Assembly (NCBI RefSeq): GCF_019649055.1
Contig: NW_026570664.1
Location: 1 to 21,748, forward strand
Reading direction: 5' to 3'
DNA from: Paramacrobiotus metropolitanus
Lineage: Eukaryota > Tardigrada > Eutardigrada > Parachela > Macrobiotidae
Length of the DNA: 21,748 nt
The translations under genes were made by a program, and so were the position numbers. The notes under the pieces are model-generated. The model was not told the origin of the DNA, ran no database searches, and saw only the letters and a program-made list of their open reading frames with translations. Positions 1 through 21,748 of this stretch are shown one piece after another. Each line of letters begins with the position of its first letter. Within the stretch, counting starts at the first letter, position 1.

Positions 1-752
1 GAATGTCTGCTTTTCTTCCAGGTGCATCTGTCGCTGTCTGACAAAATTTTTTCAGCATTTCCGGGGACATGTAGCGTTTCGTGCCGCGCAACTGCGAAAT
101 GTTTGCAGAGCAGGTAGAATGTCCTTGCATGTGGATTATATCATCCAGGTCACTGATCATTAACTCCTCGCGATCGTCTCCCAAGGCCTTTACCAAAACG
201 TTTCCCGGTTTAAGATCTCCGTGAATTATACCATTCTCGTGGAGGAAATTCAGTCCTTTGGCTATGCATACCGCGTACTGGACAACTTTGTAACTGTTTA
301 TCTAGTAGCATCGCTAGATCCCTAAACATTTGGCACTGATTTAATTAAACCGCAGGCTATACGTAAAGAATTGCTCAACAATACTAGCTTGCCTGACCTG
401 TATGGCAATCCATTGCTAACTCGACGGTGGGCTCCGGCAAGATTCTTAATGATGGATATTTCGTGAACAAGTGCAGTAAGTTTTCTCATTTCTCGTCTCA
501 GTGCAGTAAGTTAAGTTTGTTCACGGCTCGCTGAAAGCTTTCCTGGTCAGCAAGTTTTTCCAAAGGAACACAAATTTGGATCACTTTGACTGCTACGACG
601 TCGTTTCCTGCATAATCACCACGCTTTGTAACTTTGGCTTTGTAAACAGCGCCATACGATCCCTTTCCAATAAAATCTGCATGGGAGTAGTGATACTGCA
701 TAGTACGGCCGAAATGCTGTGTTTCGGCCGGGTTGGAAGCGTTAATTCCCAT
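1..752 (-). pseudogene. Protein kinase domain gene, disrupted, 3' end off window
   Basis: The minus strand encodes most of a Ser/Thr-type kinase fold. The 752-498 segment opens with an ATG just after an in-frame TAA and holds the Gly-rich loop IGKGSYGAVYKAK and the ATP-binding lysine in VAVKV. A helix-C-like stretch (HEISIIKNL) lies in another frame at about 480-420. The catalytic loop HGDLKPGNVL and activation segment ending GTKRYMSPEML read from about 290 to 1. Odd points: the metal-binding DFG position reads DLD; the first segment hits TGA inside a 30-bp-spaced repeat, so helix C is out of frame; and strands beta4-beta5 and the hinge are not visible in the roughly 140 bp between helix C and the catalytic loop. 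Kinase identity is secure. Whether it is functional is not: I read it as a decayed copy, but missed small exons or an assembly indel are possible. Confidence 0.7.
471..510. repeat. 10-bp direct repeat, 30-bp period
   Basis: GTGCAGTAAG occurs at 471-480 and again at 501-510. The intervening 20 bp bring an in-frame TGA into the kinase reading frame on the minus strand. Removing about 35 bp here would join FQRAVNKL to the helix-C-like HEISIIKNL, so this looks like a small insertion or duplication. It is too short for a normal GT-AG intron. Confidence 0.6.
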
Positions 753-1099
753 CTCTTAGTCCAAAGATAAATTCAAGCCACGTTGTAATTTATTCACAAT
801 AGCTGAAACAAACTTATTGCGCATCATTATGATACTTTCATTCTCTGCTAGTTCTGGGTTGTATAAATTGGTGATCGAACAATGCTATCATCAGGTCGTA
901 ATGTGTCCGATAATAAATGTAAATGCTATCGCAGTACCGCCAATGCTGGTTGCCGAAATAGCGGTATTCTGAACACCAGTGTGAACGCCTTCACACGCGA
1001 GCTAACTCTTGTGTACCGTACATCTATCGAACCCTGATATTGGTAATCAGATAAAGTGGTAAAGCCGTGCGATATTTACATTGACGTGAGATATTTACA
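753..1099. other. Gene-free stretch upstream of the kinase
   Basis: I see no convincing coding exon on either strand. The only structure is a tandem duplication of GATATTTACATTGA at 1071-1084 and 1090-1103 (period 19 bp). It presumably holds the kinase gene's 5' flank; no TATA box is obvious. Confidence 0.5.
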
Positions 1100-5207: not shown

Positions 5208-7569
5208 ATGCTGCGATATGAAATTTGCGCGCTGCTTCCTTTTGTTGCACTTTGTTCCCGCGTTTCGATGAAAACAATCCGAAATCTACCAGAGGGTATG
5301 TAAAAACAAGACCTGAAATACAAGACAGGGAAGGAAGGAAATGTGTGTCCATGGCTGGAATTCCTTTCATACATCAAAAGGATGAGCTTCCCTCAAATAC
5401 GCTGTCAGTATTTTGGTTGTGCAGATTGGAGAGATTTCATCGATCCGGAAATTTTGGCAAACAGTGATGATGACGAATTCACGCGCTACGACAGCGATCT
5501 GCCGGAAGGAGACATTCTGGGACTCCAAACGCTGCAGGTATTTCGTCATGCGAAACTCCTTTAAAGGACAGCGTGTATATCCAATTTCGTAAAAGGCAAT
5601 TAAACCATTTAAATCTAAACGATTGCTGATCGCAAAATAGACAAGTCTGCTAGTCAGAAGTTGTACGAACATCCATTTTAATTGTCAAATTGTTTGACCT
5701 TTGTAGCTGGGACAGGAAGCCGCAAACGCCGTAAGCGACGCCAGCTCTTTTTGGCCGAACAACACCATTCCATACGAATTCTCCAAAAAGCAGAACGCAT
5801 TAATGAGTGAGGAAAGCCTGCACTAGTTTTTGGCAGTTTCAAGCAGAAGATAAAAATCAGCTCTTACCAGAGTGTGATAGTTGACCATCTTACTATTTGT
5901 AGCGCCTAAGGAAATTCAGAGTGTGTTGGAGTCTATGCGTATTGTTAGCCACCTGACCGGTAACTGCGTCAAATTTGTGCAGCGCACCACCGAAGAAGAT
6001 TACATCAGCTTTCAAAAAGGACTGCAGTCAGTAACTCTTCTTAACAATACAGTTTACTGGTACCATGATTGTCATTCAAAAACAGTTACCGGTTTGTGTT
6101 AGGTGCATGTCGAGTATTGGTCGCATTGGTGGGAAGCAAGCGGCAACATATTCGCCCGCATGCCTCAAGCAGCACGGCGATGTCCAGCACGAACTGATGC
6201 ATGTTCTGGGTTTCTTCCATGAACATTCGCGAGCTGACCGAGACGAATACGTTAAAATCATCTGGGACAACATCGCCAAAAGTAAGGCTGGATAAACGCT
6301 GAGTTCAGCGACTGATTGGCCATTTGGATCTACCGTCCCTTTTCCAGGCGACAAAGACCAGTTTGCCAAGCACGAGAACGGCAACACGTACGGGTTGCCG
6401 TACGACTACGAATCGGTTATGCACTACAAGCACAACGCCTTCGCCAAAGACAGCGGCATCCCGACTATCGTCCCAACCAGCAGAAAGTCGAAGATTGGAC
6501 AGAACCGGGATCTGAGTCCGTTGGATGTGGTCAGAATACACCGACGGTTCCGGTGTTCGATTGCGGACCCAAAGACGTTTTCCTGTAAGCCACATTTCCT
6601 TAGGCACGCCCTAAATTAAACGCCAGGCACACGCCATCCGACTTCTGCTTTATGTAGCAGGCGAAGACAGTTGCAACGAGAAGTCGGGTAACTGTCCTGT
6701 CTGTCCGATTGCGCAAGCAGGAAAGCAGGATCAGTGCGAATCCGGAAACAGCAGGGGTAAGTGCTGTTCATTCTTTGCCCTAATTTGCAAATTGCACCAA
6801 CCCGAAGAAAAGACACAGTTTCTTGGCAACCGAAGAACAATATTGTAACCGGTGAACTTCGATAAACTAATACGCCGTTGCAGACAGGGCGTCGATGCAC
6901 TAGTAAAAAAATAATGAAACGTACCGGCTGATAATTATTACAGAAGATGATGGTGAAAACAATGGGATGTTTACTGCAACAGAATCGTTCCTGCAGTTTT
7001 CCCAGGAGCCAATGACCGCAGAGCAATGTGGGCTTCAGTTCACCACCAGCTGTAATAACCCGCGATATACAGCTGAGAACTGCACGTATACGCGAGCGCT
7101 TGCCATCAACTGCAGCACGCTCGTTACTTCGGCAGAAATTCGGCAGATCAGCGCTGGACTTTCCAGATCTCCAAAGAGAGCAATTGCGGTTGATCTTTAT
7201 GATGGTGACTACATCGTTTTCGATAACTTCCACACGGTCCGGCAACAAGTTGTGGCGACTGCCATCACAAACTGCATTTCTAGCCGGACCGTTCAAAAAC
7301 TGGCCGCACTACGTTTTTCCAGTTTGTTAGAATTGGAGATAAAACACTGCTATGGACTGGAAATCAAGAGAGCTGATTTCGGCCAGTCAAACAAGATCAC
7401 AGTGATTACTTTTGAAGACACTACTATTAAAATGTTGGAGAAGGGCACGTTTACTGATCTGCCGTCTTTGCGAGTGCTATCCTTAGAGTTGGGCATGCGT
7501 AACATGGCTGTTTTCGGGCGGACCATTCGAGATTACCTGAAGAAGGTCCACTGCGGCTGCGATTTCTAG
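5208..7569 (+). CDS. Astacin-family zinc metalloprotease spliced to an LRR module, ending at TAG
   Basis: This is a secreted metalloendopeptidase of the astacin (M12A) family. Exons: 5208-5295, 5425-5537, 5707-5806, 5903-6026, 6103-6281, 6348-6584, 6661-6756 and 6944 on; every junction is GT-AG and phase-compatible. The ATG at 5208 gives a hydrophobic leader (MLRYEICALLPFVALC). An acidic propeptide follows, then WPNNTIPYEF (83-92) at the start of the mature domain. The zinc site HELMHVLGFFHEHSRADRD has His171, His175 and His181. The Met-turn SVMHY (224-228) supplies the fifth-ligand Tyr. Domain cysteines include C143, C162 and C271. A Cys-rich tail (C281-C306) precedes the LRR module. The frame stops at TAG 7567-7569, after 520 codons. 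The astacin part is secure. The fusion to LRR rests on splice phase alone. Astacins usually carry CUB, EGF, TSP or ShK tails, so LRR would be unusual. Confidence 0.85.
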
Positions 7570-7777
7570 TGGTTTCGCGATTGGTGGGAAGGTAATCGGC
7601 AATTGCTGCGAAAGGCTGCAGCAGAGGAAGTGTACCTCATCCCAGAAGCACGGAGAAATAATAATTACACTAAAGAGGACATTTATCTGCCCATTGACTG
7701 CTCGGTTAACCCGTTTCCTACTGTACCAACTTCCATAGACCATAAACAGTACAGGTTCTCAATCAACGTACCGCAGT
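6944..7777 (+). other. LRR module 1 (with internal TAG)
   Basis: The module starts after acceptor TTATTACAG. A Cys-rich N-cap (PMTAEQCGLQFTTSCN) leads into an LRR core with GTFTDLPSLRVLSLELG, and a C-cap with CGCDF. TAG at 7567-7569 follows CDF, yet the same frame stays protein-like to 7777: WFRDWWEGNRQLLRKA, then YLPIDCSVNPFPTVP and FSINVPQC. It aligns without gaps to module 2 across the stop. A donor GTAAGT at 7778 leaves phase 1, the same phase as the intron in front, so the exon is a symmetric 1-1 module. Without splicing, the readthrough frame would end at TAA/TGA near 7827. The stop makes expression of the module's end doubtful. Confidence 0.75.
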
Positions 7778-7989
7778 GTAAGTGCAACCCAACTATTAAA
7801 TCCCTCTCAAGATCAGCTTACTCTTAATGAACATCAATGTCTTACAGCCATAAACCGGGAAATGACATACGCTGAGCTGATACATGATAATAATAACAGA
7901 GCGCCTCAGCATTTTGTTCTCTACTAATTCACATAATGACACATATGGTAATACATCTCTTAGGTCGAAATTTATTTGGTTCATTCTAG
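7778..7989 (+). other. Predicted intron between the LRR modules
   Basis: Donor GTAAGT at 7778, acceptor TTCATTCTAG ending at 7989. Phase 1 on both sides restores the module 2 frame (SSADVDTSQCSDELL). The frame can also be read through the acceptor as a short hydrophobic run (FIWFILVSS), so a separate start for module 2 cannot be excluded. Confidence 0.55.
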
Positions 7990-8845
7990 TTTCGAGTGCC
8001 GACGTTGACACATCACAATGCTCGGATGAACTGTTGAACTCTAAAGACTTATTCCCGTCTTTTTCCACTGATCCAATGACTGCAGGAGAATGCGATATCC
8101 AGTTCACCGCACACTGTGAACCATCATTTTACACAAGAACCTCATGCCTACTTAATAAGATCGTGCAAATCCGCTGCGACCGAGAAGCAAGCTCGGACGA
8201 AATTAACCGCATGCTGACGGCTATCAGCAAAGCACCCGTGCGTCCGGTACAGATTATTTCCGTGGACGACTCTGAAATGTCATCGGTTGATCTGGGGAAG
8301 TGAGAAAACATGTTGTTGCATATAACCTCCACGACTGCACAGCTCGAAGAGCAACCGGAAGGCTGCGCGAAATACCTCTGCCCAGTCTTTTAAGTTAGAG
8401 TCTTTACAGATGTCTCAACTTACATGCAAAAAAGGCGGATTTCGAGTATTCTCAAGAATTACGAATAGTTGGATTTTGGAATTCAACCTTTCGTACTTTC
8501 GAAAGCGGTACGTTCTCTCAGTTATCGGCACTGCGCATATTGTCTCTCGAGTCCGACATCAGAAAGGCAACAACTTTCACTGCAGATATGAACGACTATC
8601 TGTTTCGACTTCACTGCAGCTGTGATTTCGCACCCTTCCGTAAATGGCGAAAAAACAACAAGCAATTACTGCGAACGGCTGACTGGGGACTACTTTATGG
8701 TTTTCAAGAGAGTTTCGCCAGCCCCGCGTTCCATCACAATGAAGTTTATGTGCCCGTTGACTGCTCTGCAGATCCTTTCCCTTCCGGACCAGATTCCATT
8801 GACTTTGACCAGGTGGAATTTTCGCTGAATGAGCCTTCCTGCTGA
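7990..8845 (+). pseudogene. LRR module 2, tandem paralog of module 1, disrupted
   Basis: The N-cap (PMTAGECDIQFTAHC) and the end (GTFSQLSALRILSLES, then CSCDFAPFRKW, to FSLNEPSC and TGA at 8843-8845) align with module 1. The middle is damaged. After SSVDL, relative to module 1, about 11 codons are lost with a frameshift. The homologous frame then resumes and contains TAG at 8396-8398, where LPSLLS*SLYRC faces FSSLLELEIKHC. Alternatively, a GT-AG intron at 8300-8409 (GTGAGA, CTTTACAG) would remove both lesions and rejoin the frame in phase 2, deleting about 45 residues of LRR core. I cannot tell a decayed exon from intronised coding DNA. A poly(A) signal lies 500 bp downstream. Confidence 0.75.
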
Positions 8846-9573: not shown

Positions 9574-10294
9574 TTAACCCGTTTAGGGTAACCAAGACAT
9601 AGTTTCCCTGTACCGGCCGTTATAGTCGAAACACAAAAAGTCGCTGCGCCCTCAAGTGACACCAATGGAACCAATGGACCCTACTGGAACCCGTTGGAAC
9701 TGTTGCAACTACTATCTGTACATGTCTTATTGCACCCTTGTGTGGTGCCAATGGAACATATGGAACACTACTGTAACCCACTGGAACCGTTGGAACATCG
9801 TCTCGTCGTCGTCATCGTCAGTACATCGTCTCATTGCGCTGTTACAGATATGTGATACCAAAGGAACCTATGGAACTCCTTTGGAACTGTTGGAACTGCT
9901 GTAAATCGTCTCATTGCGCCTTTATTTGATTCCAATGGAACTTATGGAACTCCACTGGAACTCGTTGGAACCAAAGGAAACATTGTTAATACGTTCCAAC
10001 GGGTTCCAATAGAGTTCCATAGGTTCCATGTATCACGTAAAGGGCGCAGTGAGAAATGTACAGTGGTTCGGACAGCTCCAATGGGTTCCAATAGAGTTCC
10101 ATACGTTCCACTGGTATCATAAGGAGACGTAACATGAACTTCTGTTGCGGTTTCATCGGATCCTAGCGTAGGTATTTAGTTGGACTGGATGGAACTGGTG
10201 GAACTTATGGAACCGATGTAGATTTTGGAACTAGTGGAACTTGTGGAACGATTGGAACTCTAGAGGAACCGCCTTCTTACCCTAAACGGGTTAA
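9574..10294. mobile_element. piggyBac-like MITE with inverted GGAAC minisatellite
   Basis: Both ends read TTAACCCGTTTAGGGTAA: plus at 9574-9591 and as its exact reverse complement at 10277-10294. The outer TTAA fits the piggyBac target duplication, and CCC is the usual start of that superfamily's ends. No transposase is present. The interior is a minisatellite built on TGGAAC with partner motifs such as TCGTCTCATTGCGC. It runs plus at 9656-9985 (about three units of 85-115 bp), minus at 9990-10115 and plus at 10180-10270. Perfect ends after such internal divergence suggest a fairly recent insertion or selection on the ends. ORFs within it are repeat translations. Confidence 0.85.
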
Positions 10295-10780: not shown

Positions 10781-11120
10781 GTTGAGTTCAGCCAACACTG
10801 CACCCTACTTTTACTGTTGTCAACCGACTGCAGCACCGCGTTCGACCGCAAACCGTATTTCAGCGGCGTGCTTGCTAGATCTGGAAGTACCGCGATTATA
10901 TTTTGAGCGCCCTCTGTCATTCTTTTTTTGTTGTTGTTCGCGCAAACGGTGAAGCAGAATGTGACCTTACAAAATTCTATGTGTCTGCTCTTACTTTGTG
11001 CATGCCCAGTATTAAATCTGTTGACACTTTATATGAAAAACTGACTATATACTGACAACATTTTAAAGAGTTATACCGTTTAACCCAACTTATTAAGTGT
11101 GTCACATTTTATGCGGCATC

Positions 11121-11287
11121 TGCCAGATTTTATCGTTTGCCAACGGCTACTTATACATCATCCGCGGGTTTGTTTCCTACAACGCGATTCTCTCCGCTGA
11201 ATGCATTATTCTGCACCTGGAAACTGGGACATGGGAAGAAATAGGACCGCTTAATCAACCAAGATGCTGCCATGCTGCTCTGAAGTG
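11121..11287 (+). pseudogene. Kelch-repeat fragment
   Basis: The frame reads NGYLYIIRGF, then a loop, then ECIILHLETGTWEEIGPLNQ and PRCCHAALK before TGA. This matches one kelch blade plus the start of the next: a hydrophobic strand with Gly (IIRG where IGG is usual), the Glu-x-x strand, Trp and the PL..PRCCHA turn. One Gly of the doublet is replaced by Arg, and a stop falls where the next blade should continue. A BTB or other partner domain is not visible. Probably a remnant of a kelch protein. Confidence 0.55.
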
Positions 11288-17049: not shown

Positions 17050-18284
17050 TTAATATTCCTCCGTTGTTGTGTCGAAATGGATGTTTGGCGCAGACTCGGG
17101 CTCGGATGTTGTACTGCAGCATTCGTACAATTTGCCGTAAATCTTTCGGATCCGGCGGCACGGCATGACGGATGAGCAGACGGGGTTATCACACAAAATG
17201 AGGTCCGGTCGATCGTGAGGTGCGGACACGCTGTGCAGGAAGTGGTCGTCGACGTTGGTTAGTTGATTAAACATCAGCTCCACCGACTTTACTCCGTGCA
17301 TGACGTAGAAGCGGCTGAGAACAATCCGCTGGATATGATTACTCGAAAGGTCTAGGTTCTGCAACAGGAAATCCAAGTTTATTTTAGGACACTATTGCCT
17401 TATTACGGACACTATTAAGCCTTCGTCAAGAGTATAAAATCTGTCTGATGCCACGTAAAGCGTAACGTAACCCAATTCCCCACAAATTCACTGCCATTTG
17501 TTAGTGGCACTGGAGCTCGCGCTCGTGCAGGGATGTCGTAACAACCACCGCTAGTAATATGTTGGACTAAAGAGAAAATTTCATATCATGCCTTTCGATA
17601 CCTTGAGGCTGCTGGTTAGCGGTTTGAAGACGGTCCAATCCAACGTTGTAAGATTGTTGAATGTGATGCTGAACCGACCGAGATTCGGTAGCGCCGATCC
17701 CGACGCAGCGCCCACCGCGGTAAAAGCATTGACCTCAATGGTCGACAGGCGGTTACTGTACAGATACAACGCCTCCAGACGCACAAACCCGCCAAACGTC
17801 GCCCGGGTGATCGTCGGTAGATAGACTTGCGTCAGGTCCAAAGAAGTCAGCACTGCCTGCACATTGACCAGGAAGCCGGCGACGGGGAAGGGCCGGTCGT
17901 CGGGAGCCACCCAGATGTGGGTCGAGAACACGGCGGTGACGTTCGGGCGATGTGGGAGGGGCGTGAAGGTGTCCAGTAAGCAGCTGGGTGGGCACAGATT
18001 GCGGGACATGGTTCCCAGTAGAACCTCGGTGGCGTTGGCGGCGATGGCGCTGAGATTGACAGCCGGAATGTCGCAGGCGCACAGCTTGCACTTGTCACTG
18101 CAACCCGATAAGGTCCAGCGCTCGCAGGGGCACGCCGTAAGAGTTCTTCATTATCCGGCGACGGATGGGAGAACTCTTCGGGGACGGGACAACTCCATGG
18201 GGGTGCTAGACAATCCACGCATCGCGGCAGAACGCACAACACCGGCAGAAAATGCAGGTAATAATTCGATCGTAATCGAGTCAT
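17050..18284 (-). pseudogene. Secreted LRR protein gene, two exons, one frameshift
   Basis: An extracellular leucine-rich-repeat protein; such proteins act in adhesion or ligand binding, but the partner here is unknown. From ATG at 18284 a leader-like segment (MTRLRSNYYLHFLPVLCVL) leads to Cys-rich text. At about 18132-18140 the frame shifts by one base into CPCERWTLSGCSDKCKLCAC and the LRR body. Repeats visible: LTSLDLTQVYLPTITRATF, GGFVRLEALYLYSNRLSTI, LPNLGRFSITFNNLTTLDW. Intron 17359-17601 (donor GTATCG, acceptor CCTGTTGCAG, phase 0) joins exon 2, which continues NLDLSSNHIQRI and VKSVELMFNQLTNVDDHFL, then a Cys-containing C-cap and a Ser/Thr/Glu-rich tail ending TTTEEY. The tail is copied at 13419. 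No membrane segment follows. The single shift could be an assembly error; without it the gene would read intact. Confidence 0.75.
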
Positions 18285-20504: not shown

Positions 20505-21748
20505 CTAATGATTAGAGTACAGTACCTTCTTGACGATCGTCGCGCCCTCTTGACAGTTGAGCCGATTGGCCATGAAATGGGCTACTTGCTGCACATCCAC
20601 CGGCGGCCCCTCGTAGTGCAGATGCTTCTCGAACAGGTCCACAACGTCCGCCTCATCGACCTGTCCCCGGGTGAAGATGATCAGGGGCACGCGGAACTCT
20701 AAGAGGAGCACCTCCCACTGTTTTGCACGACGACGACGATATCTTTGAAAATCACACGATTGCAGCATGACTCCAGCCGGAACCGTGGTTCCGCGATCTT
20801 GTCGGTAAACAAGGCGAATTTCCATCGAGCAAATGTTGACTCTTTGTACGTGAGCGATCGCCGCTGCACGATGCAACGGTCAAGGCGGATGCCGGCGTTT
20901 TGGAAGAGATGCTGCATAACATCGAAGACGTCGTTGGCATACATCCCGCTTTCACGAATGCAGATGGTGCGTGCGACGGGCGTCACGTGCTTGGGCAAAA
21001 GCAGCGTACACGAGGTAATTATCCCAGAAGCTGTACTGCGCCCGCGATACAACCACTTCGCTGCACATTTCCGGCCTAATGAGAATGTCCGCCCACAGTT
21101 GGCAGGTGCGGCGGCAGCGCACGCGGTCGACGGTGTCCAATGAATGGAAAATCTCCTTCAGCACTTCCAACGGCAACGCCCAGGCGTCGTTTTCAACGAC
21201 ATTCAACTGGCTCGCCGGCGTCCGCCGCTTCCGCTCAACATCCAGCTCTTCGTTTTCAGTAAGGATTTCAATTTGCCGGGCAAAATCATGCTTCTCCCTC
21301 TGGTCCTCCAAGATATTCGCCTATTGTACGAGAACCAGAGTAGGGCGTTAAAAAATATGCCAAATAGTGAAAGTTGTACAATAATGAACCAAAATAATTT
21401 TCCAGTAGCCTGGTTAGATATCTCGTTAATGGAGTTTGGCTACTGTAGAGTGACGATAATAATAATCGTTAACCAAGAACCATAACTTACCACATCCATG
21501 TCACTTAAAGGCCACTCCCTGTATCTCCGCAGATAGCGCATCGTCTGACTGAGAACCGTGGCGAATCGCAGGTTGCACCGGCTCAAGTCCAGTAGCCGTT
21601 TGGCACCTCACACCTCACTATGACGAAATGACCCGCTTCAAGAAGTCTCGGCCAGGCATCACGAATCTGAGTGGTGGGAAGCAGTTCGCGACGACACTGC
21701 CCTTCGACTATCACCTCCACCAGCGCCATCTCTGCAGCTCGTCAAGCG
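20505..21748 (-). pseudogene. F-box family gene with several frame breaks, 5' end off window
   Basis: F-box proteins are substrate adaptors of SCF ubiquitin ligases. The right edge encodes the family N-terminal part (MALVEVIVEGQCRRELLP), then after a frame break near 21605 LSRCNLRFATVLSQTMRYLR and WPLSDMDV. Intron 21321-21490 (GTAAGT, CAATAG, phase 0) leads to an exon with a charged helix and the F-box ALPLEVLKEIFHSLDTVDRV, RCRRTCQLW. The frame shifts at about 20995-21010 into KHVTPVARTICIRESGMYAN, and shifts back at about 20705-20730 into LLLEFRVPLIIFTRGQVDEA and CQEGATIVKKVL, stopping at 20505. The first and last frames agree, so two compensating indels bound a block of about 290 bp. AAG|GTACTG near the end may be a donor. 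Probably a decayed copy, or a real gene with assembly indels. Confidence 0.7.

Follow-up and report, generated by a model that had tools for sequence, protein, structure and literature searches.

A gene at positions 5208-8845 (+ strand) of a 21,748-nucleotide stretch of DNA from the tardigrade Paramacrobiotus metropolitanus (the window; G000:C444:1-21748, apparently the whole contig, of G000, the 169.8-Mb genome searched) is, judged from its reading frame as assembled, a disabled member of a family in which an astacin protease carries leucine-rich repeat (LRR) modules. We assign a probability of about 0.72 to the reading that this is a disabled locus of a large eutardigrade family of secreted astacin zinc proteases with one to three Cys-capped LRR arms. 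A preliminary description of this DNA had proposed an astacin fused to tandem LRR modules by symmetric phase-1 exons. That architecture is strongly upheld at the family level by an intact nine-exon paralog, by 33 clusters in which both domains share an open-frame length, and by a copy (C238) with a doubled module 1, but it fails for the window copy as assembled.

The window gene, its lesions and its intact paralog

The gene comprises nine exons, which specify a putative signal peptide and propeptide, the astacin domain, a Cys-rich linker and LRR modules 1 and 2. Its closest paralog, C281, and another close copy, C9, serve below as references.

5208-5295, +: E1, start codon and signal-peptide-like sequence, ending in phase 1 (from the joined translation and donor site; signal peptide by eye)
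5425-5537, +: E2, propeptide with LPEGDI (same residues in the C281 paralog)
5707-5806, +: E3, end of propeptide and start of mature protease (assigned by eye)
5903-6026, +: E4, astacin N-terminal subdomain (matched by Pfam only within the joined sequence)
6103-6281, +: E5, intact zinc motif HELMHVLGFFHE (Pfam astacin, E 5.7e-21)
6348-6584, +: E6, Met-turn SVMHY and C-terminal subdomain (Pfam astacin, E 3.7e-17)
6661-6756, +: E7, Cys-rich linker, ending in phase 1 (splice sites conserved in C281 and C9)
6944-7777, +: M1, first LRR module, a symmetric 1-1 exon of 834 bases
7990-8845, +: M2, second LRR module; last exon, natural stop at 8843-8845

The first eight exons (E1-E7 and M1) form a single consistent frame from the ATG, with GT..AG borders throughout, and both introns flanking M1 (6757-6943 on its 5' side, 7778-7989 on the side of M2) are of phase 1, so that the exons, coordinates, splice sites and phases given in the preliminary description were right. 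Joined by hand with provisional borders, the catalytic exons matched Pfam astacin (PF01400, M12A) with E = 5.7e-53 over profile positions 2-189 of 189. Both the zinc motif HExxHxxGxxHE, present as HELMHVLGFFHE, and the Met-turn SxMHY, present as SVMHY, lie in the window. The hydrophobic start of E1 and the LPEGDI of E2 were observed by eye only, the latter resembling the aspartate-switch motif of astacin propeptides. A Pfam scan of window exons gave no match at E up to 1 to CUB or EGF, or to MAM or MATH, the accessory domains of the tolloid and meprin subfamilies. NCBIfam left M1 unmatched and gave E6 only a far-below-cut-off match to a bacterial astacin, which the domain in common would lead one to expect, and Rfam and ARAGORN returned nothing in the window.

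The preliminary description had missed the following lesions, which interrupt the frame in both modules and were seen in the joined frame and by comparison with C281 and C9.

7567-7569, +: in-frame TAG in M1, inside the C-terminal Cys cap, absent from C281 and C9
8293-8303, +: loss of one base near 8293 in M2, followed by TGA at 8301-8303, relative to the paralogs C281 and C9
8396-8398, +: second premature stop in M2, TAG, in the recovered frame, from the alignment with C281 and C9

The TAG in M1 is codon 521 of the joined frame and sits straight after HCGCDF. Because of the stops in M1 and M2, the window copy as assembled would be unable to make a two-arm protein; its product would be a protease with an uncapped first arm only, or nothing. 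Two ways of splicing around the lesions were considered and found unsupported: a small intron skipping the TAG at 7567, where C281 and C9 code straight through, and a new M2 intron at GAAGTGAGA (8298-8306), whose bases are likewise coding in C281 and C9. As a separate observation, both substitution-type premature stops of the window are TAG, and the stops found in module matches across the genome comprise six TAG, two TAA and no TGA (8 matches), which are small numbers.

The paralog C281 (locus L011) has nine exons with canonical borders and no premature stop, and encodes 875 amino acids. Its E1-E7 and M1 are equal in length to those of the window, its M2 measures 857 bases versus 856, and its open frame ends at the same place as the window M2. 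The alignment of the two loci is continuous, introns included, up to the end of the sequence retrieved, with 77.5% over 4,787 columns. Synonymous divergence (dS) between them is 0.42 in the astacin part, 0.41 in M1 and 0.43 in M2, as expected for one gene duplicated whole. The ratio of nonsynonymous to synonymous divergence (dN/dS) is 0.05 in the astacin exons (171 codons), 0.25 in M1 (278 codons) and 0.32 in M2 (283 codons), which argues that all three parts have been constrained. Among pairs of seven copies with defined values, mean dN/dS ranged from 0.04 to 0.12 for the astacin part, from 0.13 to 0.25 for M1 and from 0.14 to 0.55 for M2. Another copy, C85, has stops in two astacin-part exons.

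The window gene could be intact in the animal and its disablements errors of assembly, a reading that we regard as unlikely. If the Paramacrobiotus sp. TYO assembly is the source, it was built from Nanopore reads in Canu, with nanopolish and Pilon used for polishing (PMC8277472); one of the window lesions is a one-base loss, and C444 is a small contig. The two TAGs, however, are substitutions with respect to C281 and C9 and as such less typical of Nanopore assembly errors, the astacin exons are free of lesions, and damage is found in other members too: 8 of 150 module matches contain stops, and in C9 exon E2 is shortened and much of E3 is missing. It is more improbable still that a truncated product, the protease with a first arm lacking its cap, is made and serves a function. 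The strong constraint on the window astacin exons relative to C281 would fit such use, but past constraint is no proof of present use, and the TAG cuts off the remainder of the C-terminal cap, in which the HCxC residues vary little or not at all across 37 modules. The favored reading remains that of a disabled locus in a family with intact members.

A family of arm-bearing astacins

Searching the genome with M1 yielded 150 scored matches of 473 candidates, and searches with the astacin part and with PF01400 yielded 150 scored matches each, of 376 and 445 candidates, respectively; since not all candidates were scored, the family counts that follow are lower bounds. No internal stop occurs in the matched part of 142 of the 150 module matches, and a set of relatives of this size means that the arrangement of astacin and module is not a matter of chance. 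Grouped by position, the matches form 116 module clusters, and for 54 of them an astacin is listed on the same strand no more than 3 kb upstream. In 33 of these 54 the astacin and the module have equal open-frame length, and all 11 of those that were translated are continuous, with an astacin followed by one, two or (C46) three modules; the translation of L029 begins inside the astacin, where the stretch was cut.

Two random samples complement these counts. Sixteen clusters were drawn from the 62 without a listed astacin, and an astacin was found upstream in two and not in the stretch read for the other 14. Sixteen loci were drawn from the 109 astacins (among 164) without a listed module, and a local profile found a downstream module in eight and none in the other eight. 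If the latter sample is fair, roughly two thirds of the listed astacin loci would bear arms. Astacins with arms thus number dozens, each with one to three.

The same material bears on whether an astacin and a separate LRR gene, two neighbors, have been misread as one gene. Module genes that lack an astacin in the stretch read are indeed found, as the 14 of 16 sampled clusters show. Against this, the donor after E7 and the acceptor before M1 are conserved in three copies (window, C281 and C9), one open-frame length spans both domains in the 33 clusters described above, and no ATG frame between E7 and M1 reaches the module. The preliminary description had named an independent 5' end with a signal peptide shortly before 6944 as grounds against the fusion; the two ATG frames in the window intron run for only 2 and 5 codons. 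In the corresponding introns of C281 and C9, ATG frames reach as many as 38 and 44 codons, but they stop within the intron and are not common to the copies. A separate LRR gene with its own start was therefore rejected, as far as ATG frames are concerned. The two-gene reading is already contradicted at the family level by these frames and borders, and we consider it very improbable.

Some further loci are recorded here for their layout. In L027 (G000:C36:452000-455500), the frame of a one-arm astacin closes with a hydrophobic stretch resembling a membrane anchor. L033, L038, L044, L045, L046 and others hold LRR modules for which the stretch read shows no astacin, and some of the protease-less module genes follow the plan of a first plus a later module. 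Outside this family, a CAHS protein, a eutardigrade marker, matched 20 places in the genome (best E 3e-69, 65% identity), and Mn-catalase, tried as a tardigrade marker, gave no match, which is uninformative.

Identity, spread and pairing of the arms

Taken alone, the window module matches LRR_8 with E = 0.0012, which is below Pfam's cut-off, and 22 of 37 modules match LRR_8 at E up to 0.01. The profile built from the alignment of these 37, which were taken from 53 modules (52 plus the window), matched TLR13 in the Protein Data Bank with E = 1.3e-19, and also LRRC15, LGR5, TLR3 and Slit2. The aligned modules contain two regular 24-residue repeats (identified by eye), further irregular ones, and a conserved C-terminal cap consisting of HCxC followed by W and C, in which H202 and C203 are invariant and C205 is nearly so. 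By these profiles the module is a secreted-type LRR domain with a Cys cap, a label that is weak for the window module alone and firm for the family. Toll-like receptors, Slit, LRRC15 and LGR5 have the 24-residue repeats and the HCxC-type C-terminal cap in common with the modules, TLR13 being the best match. The modules differ from them in being about 280 amino acids long, with their own N- and C-terminal extensions, encoded in one exon and placed behind a protease.

We divided the modules into those in one frame with the astacin (A), those in their own exon after the astacin (B), and those with no astacin seen (S). A tree of 50 modules, from which the partial modules L031, L032 and L042 had been dropped beforehand, groups mostly by position in the gene and by class, requiring seven changes for six groups (the minimum is five), so that the two-arm plan is older than most of the copies; L018 (C46) and L033 stand apart in it. 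The preliminary description had held that each module could be duplicated without altering the frame. This applies to M1 only, because M2 is the terminal exon and carries the stop. Duplication of a module without change of frame is borne out by C238, where the first-type module occurs twice and the later-type module once: only module 1 has been doubled, with the frame kept, and the terminal module stays single. Each of the two first-type modules of C238 is followed by a phase-1 donor and preceded, at the homologous place, by a phase-1 acceptor, although a simple scan ranked another AG higher there. The first donor-like site after first-position B and S modules, with the window and C9 excluded, is phase 1 in 15 of 16 cases; in the sixteenth, L033, there is no donor-like site before the stop. 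The window and C9 have the same donor after module 1 in the alignment. The module of L033, which is protease-less, is preceded by an exon that was read by eye, in L033 only, as encoding a signal peptide and ending in phase 1.

The catalytic domains do not follow the arms as one lineage. A single clade for the 28 arm-bearing astacins, as opposed to eight other rows, was rejected by the approximately unbiased test (p 1.5e-5) on a 36-domain tree that includes the long or partial rows L034, L037, L051 and L059. C230 (L030) has modules of the window's class and a catalytic domain that groups elsewhere. Placing that domain with seven of the window's class was rejected with the four long or partial rows removed (p 3e-5). 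On these trees, at least two astacin lineages carry related modules, and so do protease-less genes. Repeated joining, exchange of arms, or repeated loss can each explain this distribution; loss of arms in unfused copies gives like tree results, so repeated gain is not proved.

Some arm-bearing astacins appear to have lost catalysis. In five of the eight arm-bearing astacins of the random astacin sample, the catalytic Glu of HExxH is replaced by Leu with the zinc histidines kept, and each of these five has one module in frame. In the other random sample, drawn from clusters without a listed astacin, L037 has a degenerate motif. Twenty further places comprised 11 Leu copies, eight active copies and one (L073) without the motif; they were hand-picked, many near active genes, with arms only partly read, so that these counts are not an unbiased rate. 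Fourteen of the 16 dead copies lie on the same strand within 21 kb downstream of another listed astacin, nine of them within 6 kb. The upstream neighbors of these 14 are active in the 12 that were read, the remaining two being L073, without the motif, and C19:295816. Of the two other dead copies, one is situated at the end of a contig and the other is without a listed neighbor. All five dead copies of the random sample have an upstream astacin neighbor within 10 kb. The window contig has no other astacin among the listed matches.

C58 (two), C6, C92, C60, C19, C104, C63, C135, C7, C326 and C131: tandem pairs, active copy then dead copy, same strand, dead motif mostly HLVLH
L020/L056, L025/L057 and L022/L062: examples of such pairs

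Distances among 12 active copies correlate with those among their 12 dead partners (Mantel r 0.92; 0 of 20,000 permutations), a correlation to which a single deep split common to the active and dead sets contributes. The pattern looks as if an active/dead pair had been copied as a block.

Possible function and meaning

The closest known systems are the M12A astacins (crayfish astacin, nematode NAS proteins, tolloid/BMP1 and meprins), which have the same PF01400 domain, HExxHxxGxxHE and SxMHY, probably the same plan of a secreted zymogen, and which likewise carry accessory domains after the catalytic domain; in the present family LRR modules take that place. Shuffling of modules on symmetric 1-1 exons is familiar from CUB, EGF and other domains. 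Phase-1 borders and a second module copy without change of frame, as in C238, are common to those cases and to ours, which takes place within one family; to our knowledge, LRR modules as a 1-1 unit are unusual. The Figure 1 legend of a 2023 astacin review (PMC9848320) names CUB, EGF, MAM, MATH, ShKT, TSP, LysM, lectins, Ig, FN3, SRCR, TPR and others. LRR is not in that legend, and neither "LRR" nor "leucine-rich" occurs in the main text. A helminth survey is cited there as reporting more than 100 kinds of additional downstream domain. The term "leucine-rich" is absent from PMC2824743 and PMC6767649, and "astacin" from PMC5531438 and PMC11191345. No title or opening of an abstract among the literature matches listed concerns LRR-tailed astacins, which may be visible in UniProt or InterPro; the single matching paper that combines astacin, leucine-rich repeat and tardigrade deals with rotifers. 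Within these sources, the combination of an astacin with LRR arms was not found described.

In intact members, the signal peptide would send the zymogen out of the cell and the propeptide would hold the protease silent until cleaved; the protease part is predicted to be secreted and active in these members. The LRR arms would bind a partner, which might be a substrate, a matrix component, or a microbial or food protein, and so make cutting selective, while arms would diversify and swap by exon shuffling around a catalytic core that stays fixed. As binding scaffolds, LRRs evolve very readily. Some binding role is most likely for the arms, since they are conserved Cys-capped LRR domains, are kept where the protease is dead or absent, and show raised variability at concave positions in three of five subgroups. 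With positions assigned by hand from the repeat pattern and p values uncorrected for the number of tests, concave positions were more variable than other non-core repeat positions in first B modules (1.73 versus 0.85 bits, p 0.003), later B modules (p 0.02) and first A modules (p 0.009).

Several results weigh against this account. The concave signal was not significant for all 52 modules together (p 0.06), later A modules (p 0.08) or S modules (p 0.08), and when concave positions were compared with the rest of the module it was significant only for first B (p 0.004) and first A (p 0.02) modules. Positive selection on the arms was not shown, mean dN/dS being well below 1, and in many of the seven-copy pairs dS exceeds 1, near saturation. 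The absence of an astacin from the stretch read in 14 of 16 sampled module clusters indicates that the arm is not protease-specific. A single-sequence AlphaFold model of the window M1 failed, with a predicted local distance difference test score (pLDDT) of 30, so that the LRR fold rests on the profiles.

What the arms would do once bound can be framed by comparison with BMP1/tolloid, an extracellular astacin with exosites on its non-catalytic domains for substrate recognition; many astacins owe their specificity to accessory domains (PMC9848320). The arms of BMP1/tolloid are CUB and EGF domains, to which the window modules have no match at E up to 1. From the tolloid exosites we infer, as the best-supported account, that the arm may choose the substrate or the location of the protease. 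A real though less favored alternative is that the arms are adhesion, oligomerization or inhibitory domains and not substrate selectors. Some fused astacins have lost the catalytic Glu and kept the arm, and modules exist without a protease, so that the arm would have a use apart from catalysis; the tandem active/dead pairs with their correlated distances (12 pairs) would fit a complex. This alternative does not conflict with the data; any binding would look alike from sequence.

The window holds several other features. At 17050-18147 (- strand) there is an LRR gene or fragment, with LRR_8 matches of E 3.7e-10 (17584-18147) and, below cut-off, 0.00055 (17050-17391), and at 20952-21320 (- strand) an F-box domain (E 1.3e-8). 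Isolated Kelch motifs at 1085-1315 and 11097-11285 (+ strand; E 4.9e-6 and 1.7e-5, the second just below cut-off) are apparently fragments of Kelch genes. A kinase-like fragment, GSYGAVYKAKV, at 498-755 (- strand) has E 0.01, below Pfam's cut-off. Many loose TGGAAC/GTTCCA repeats were seen by eye at about 9650-10260, a tandem array being reported only for 10189-10259 (18-base unit).

The window itself teaches the more modest lesson of a broken copy. The family to which it belongs is a clear case of phase-1 LRR exons, and its LRR-arm astacins, with dozens of members, related arms on different protease lineages and active/dead pairs, would make it directly testable how arms steer a protease. More tentatively, and with rather low confidence, this tardigrade may possess a repertoire of LRR-guided proteases, diversified by swapping and duplication of phase-1 LRR exons around an unchanged catalytic core and composed in part of tandem cassettes, each an active arm-bearing protease followed by a dead partner, that acts as a recognition system. 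If true, this system would be immune, digestive or matrix-related, and would set variable binding surfaces before a fixed blade.

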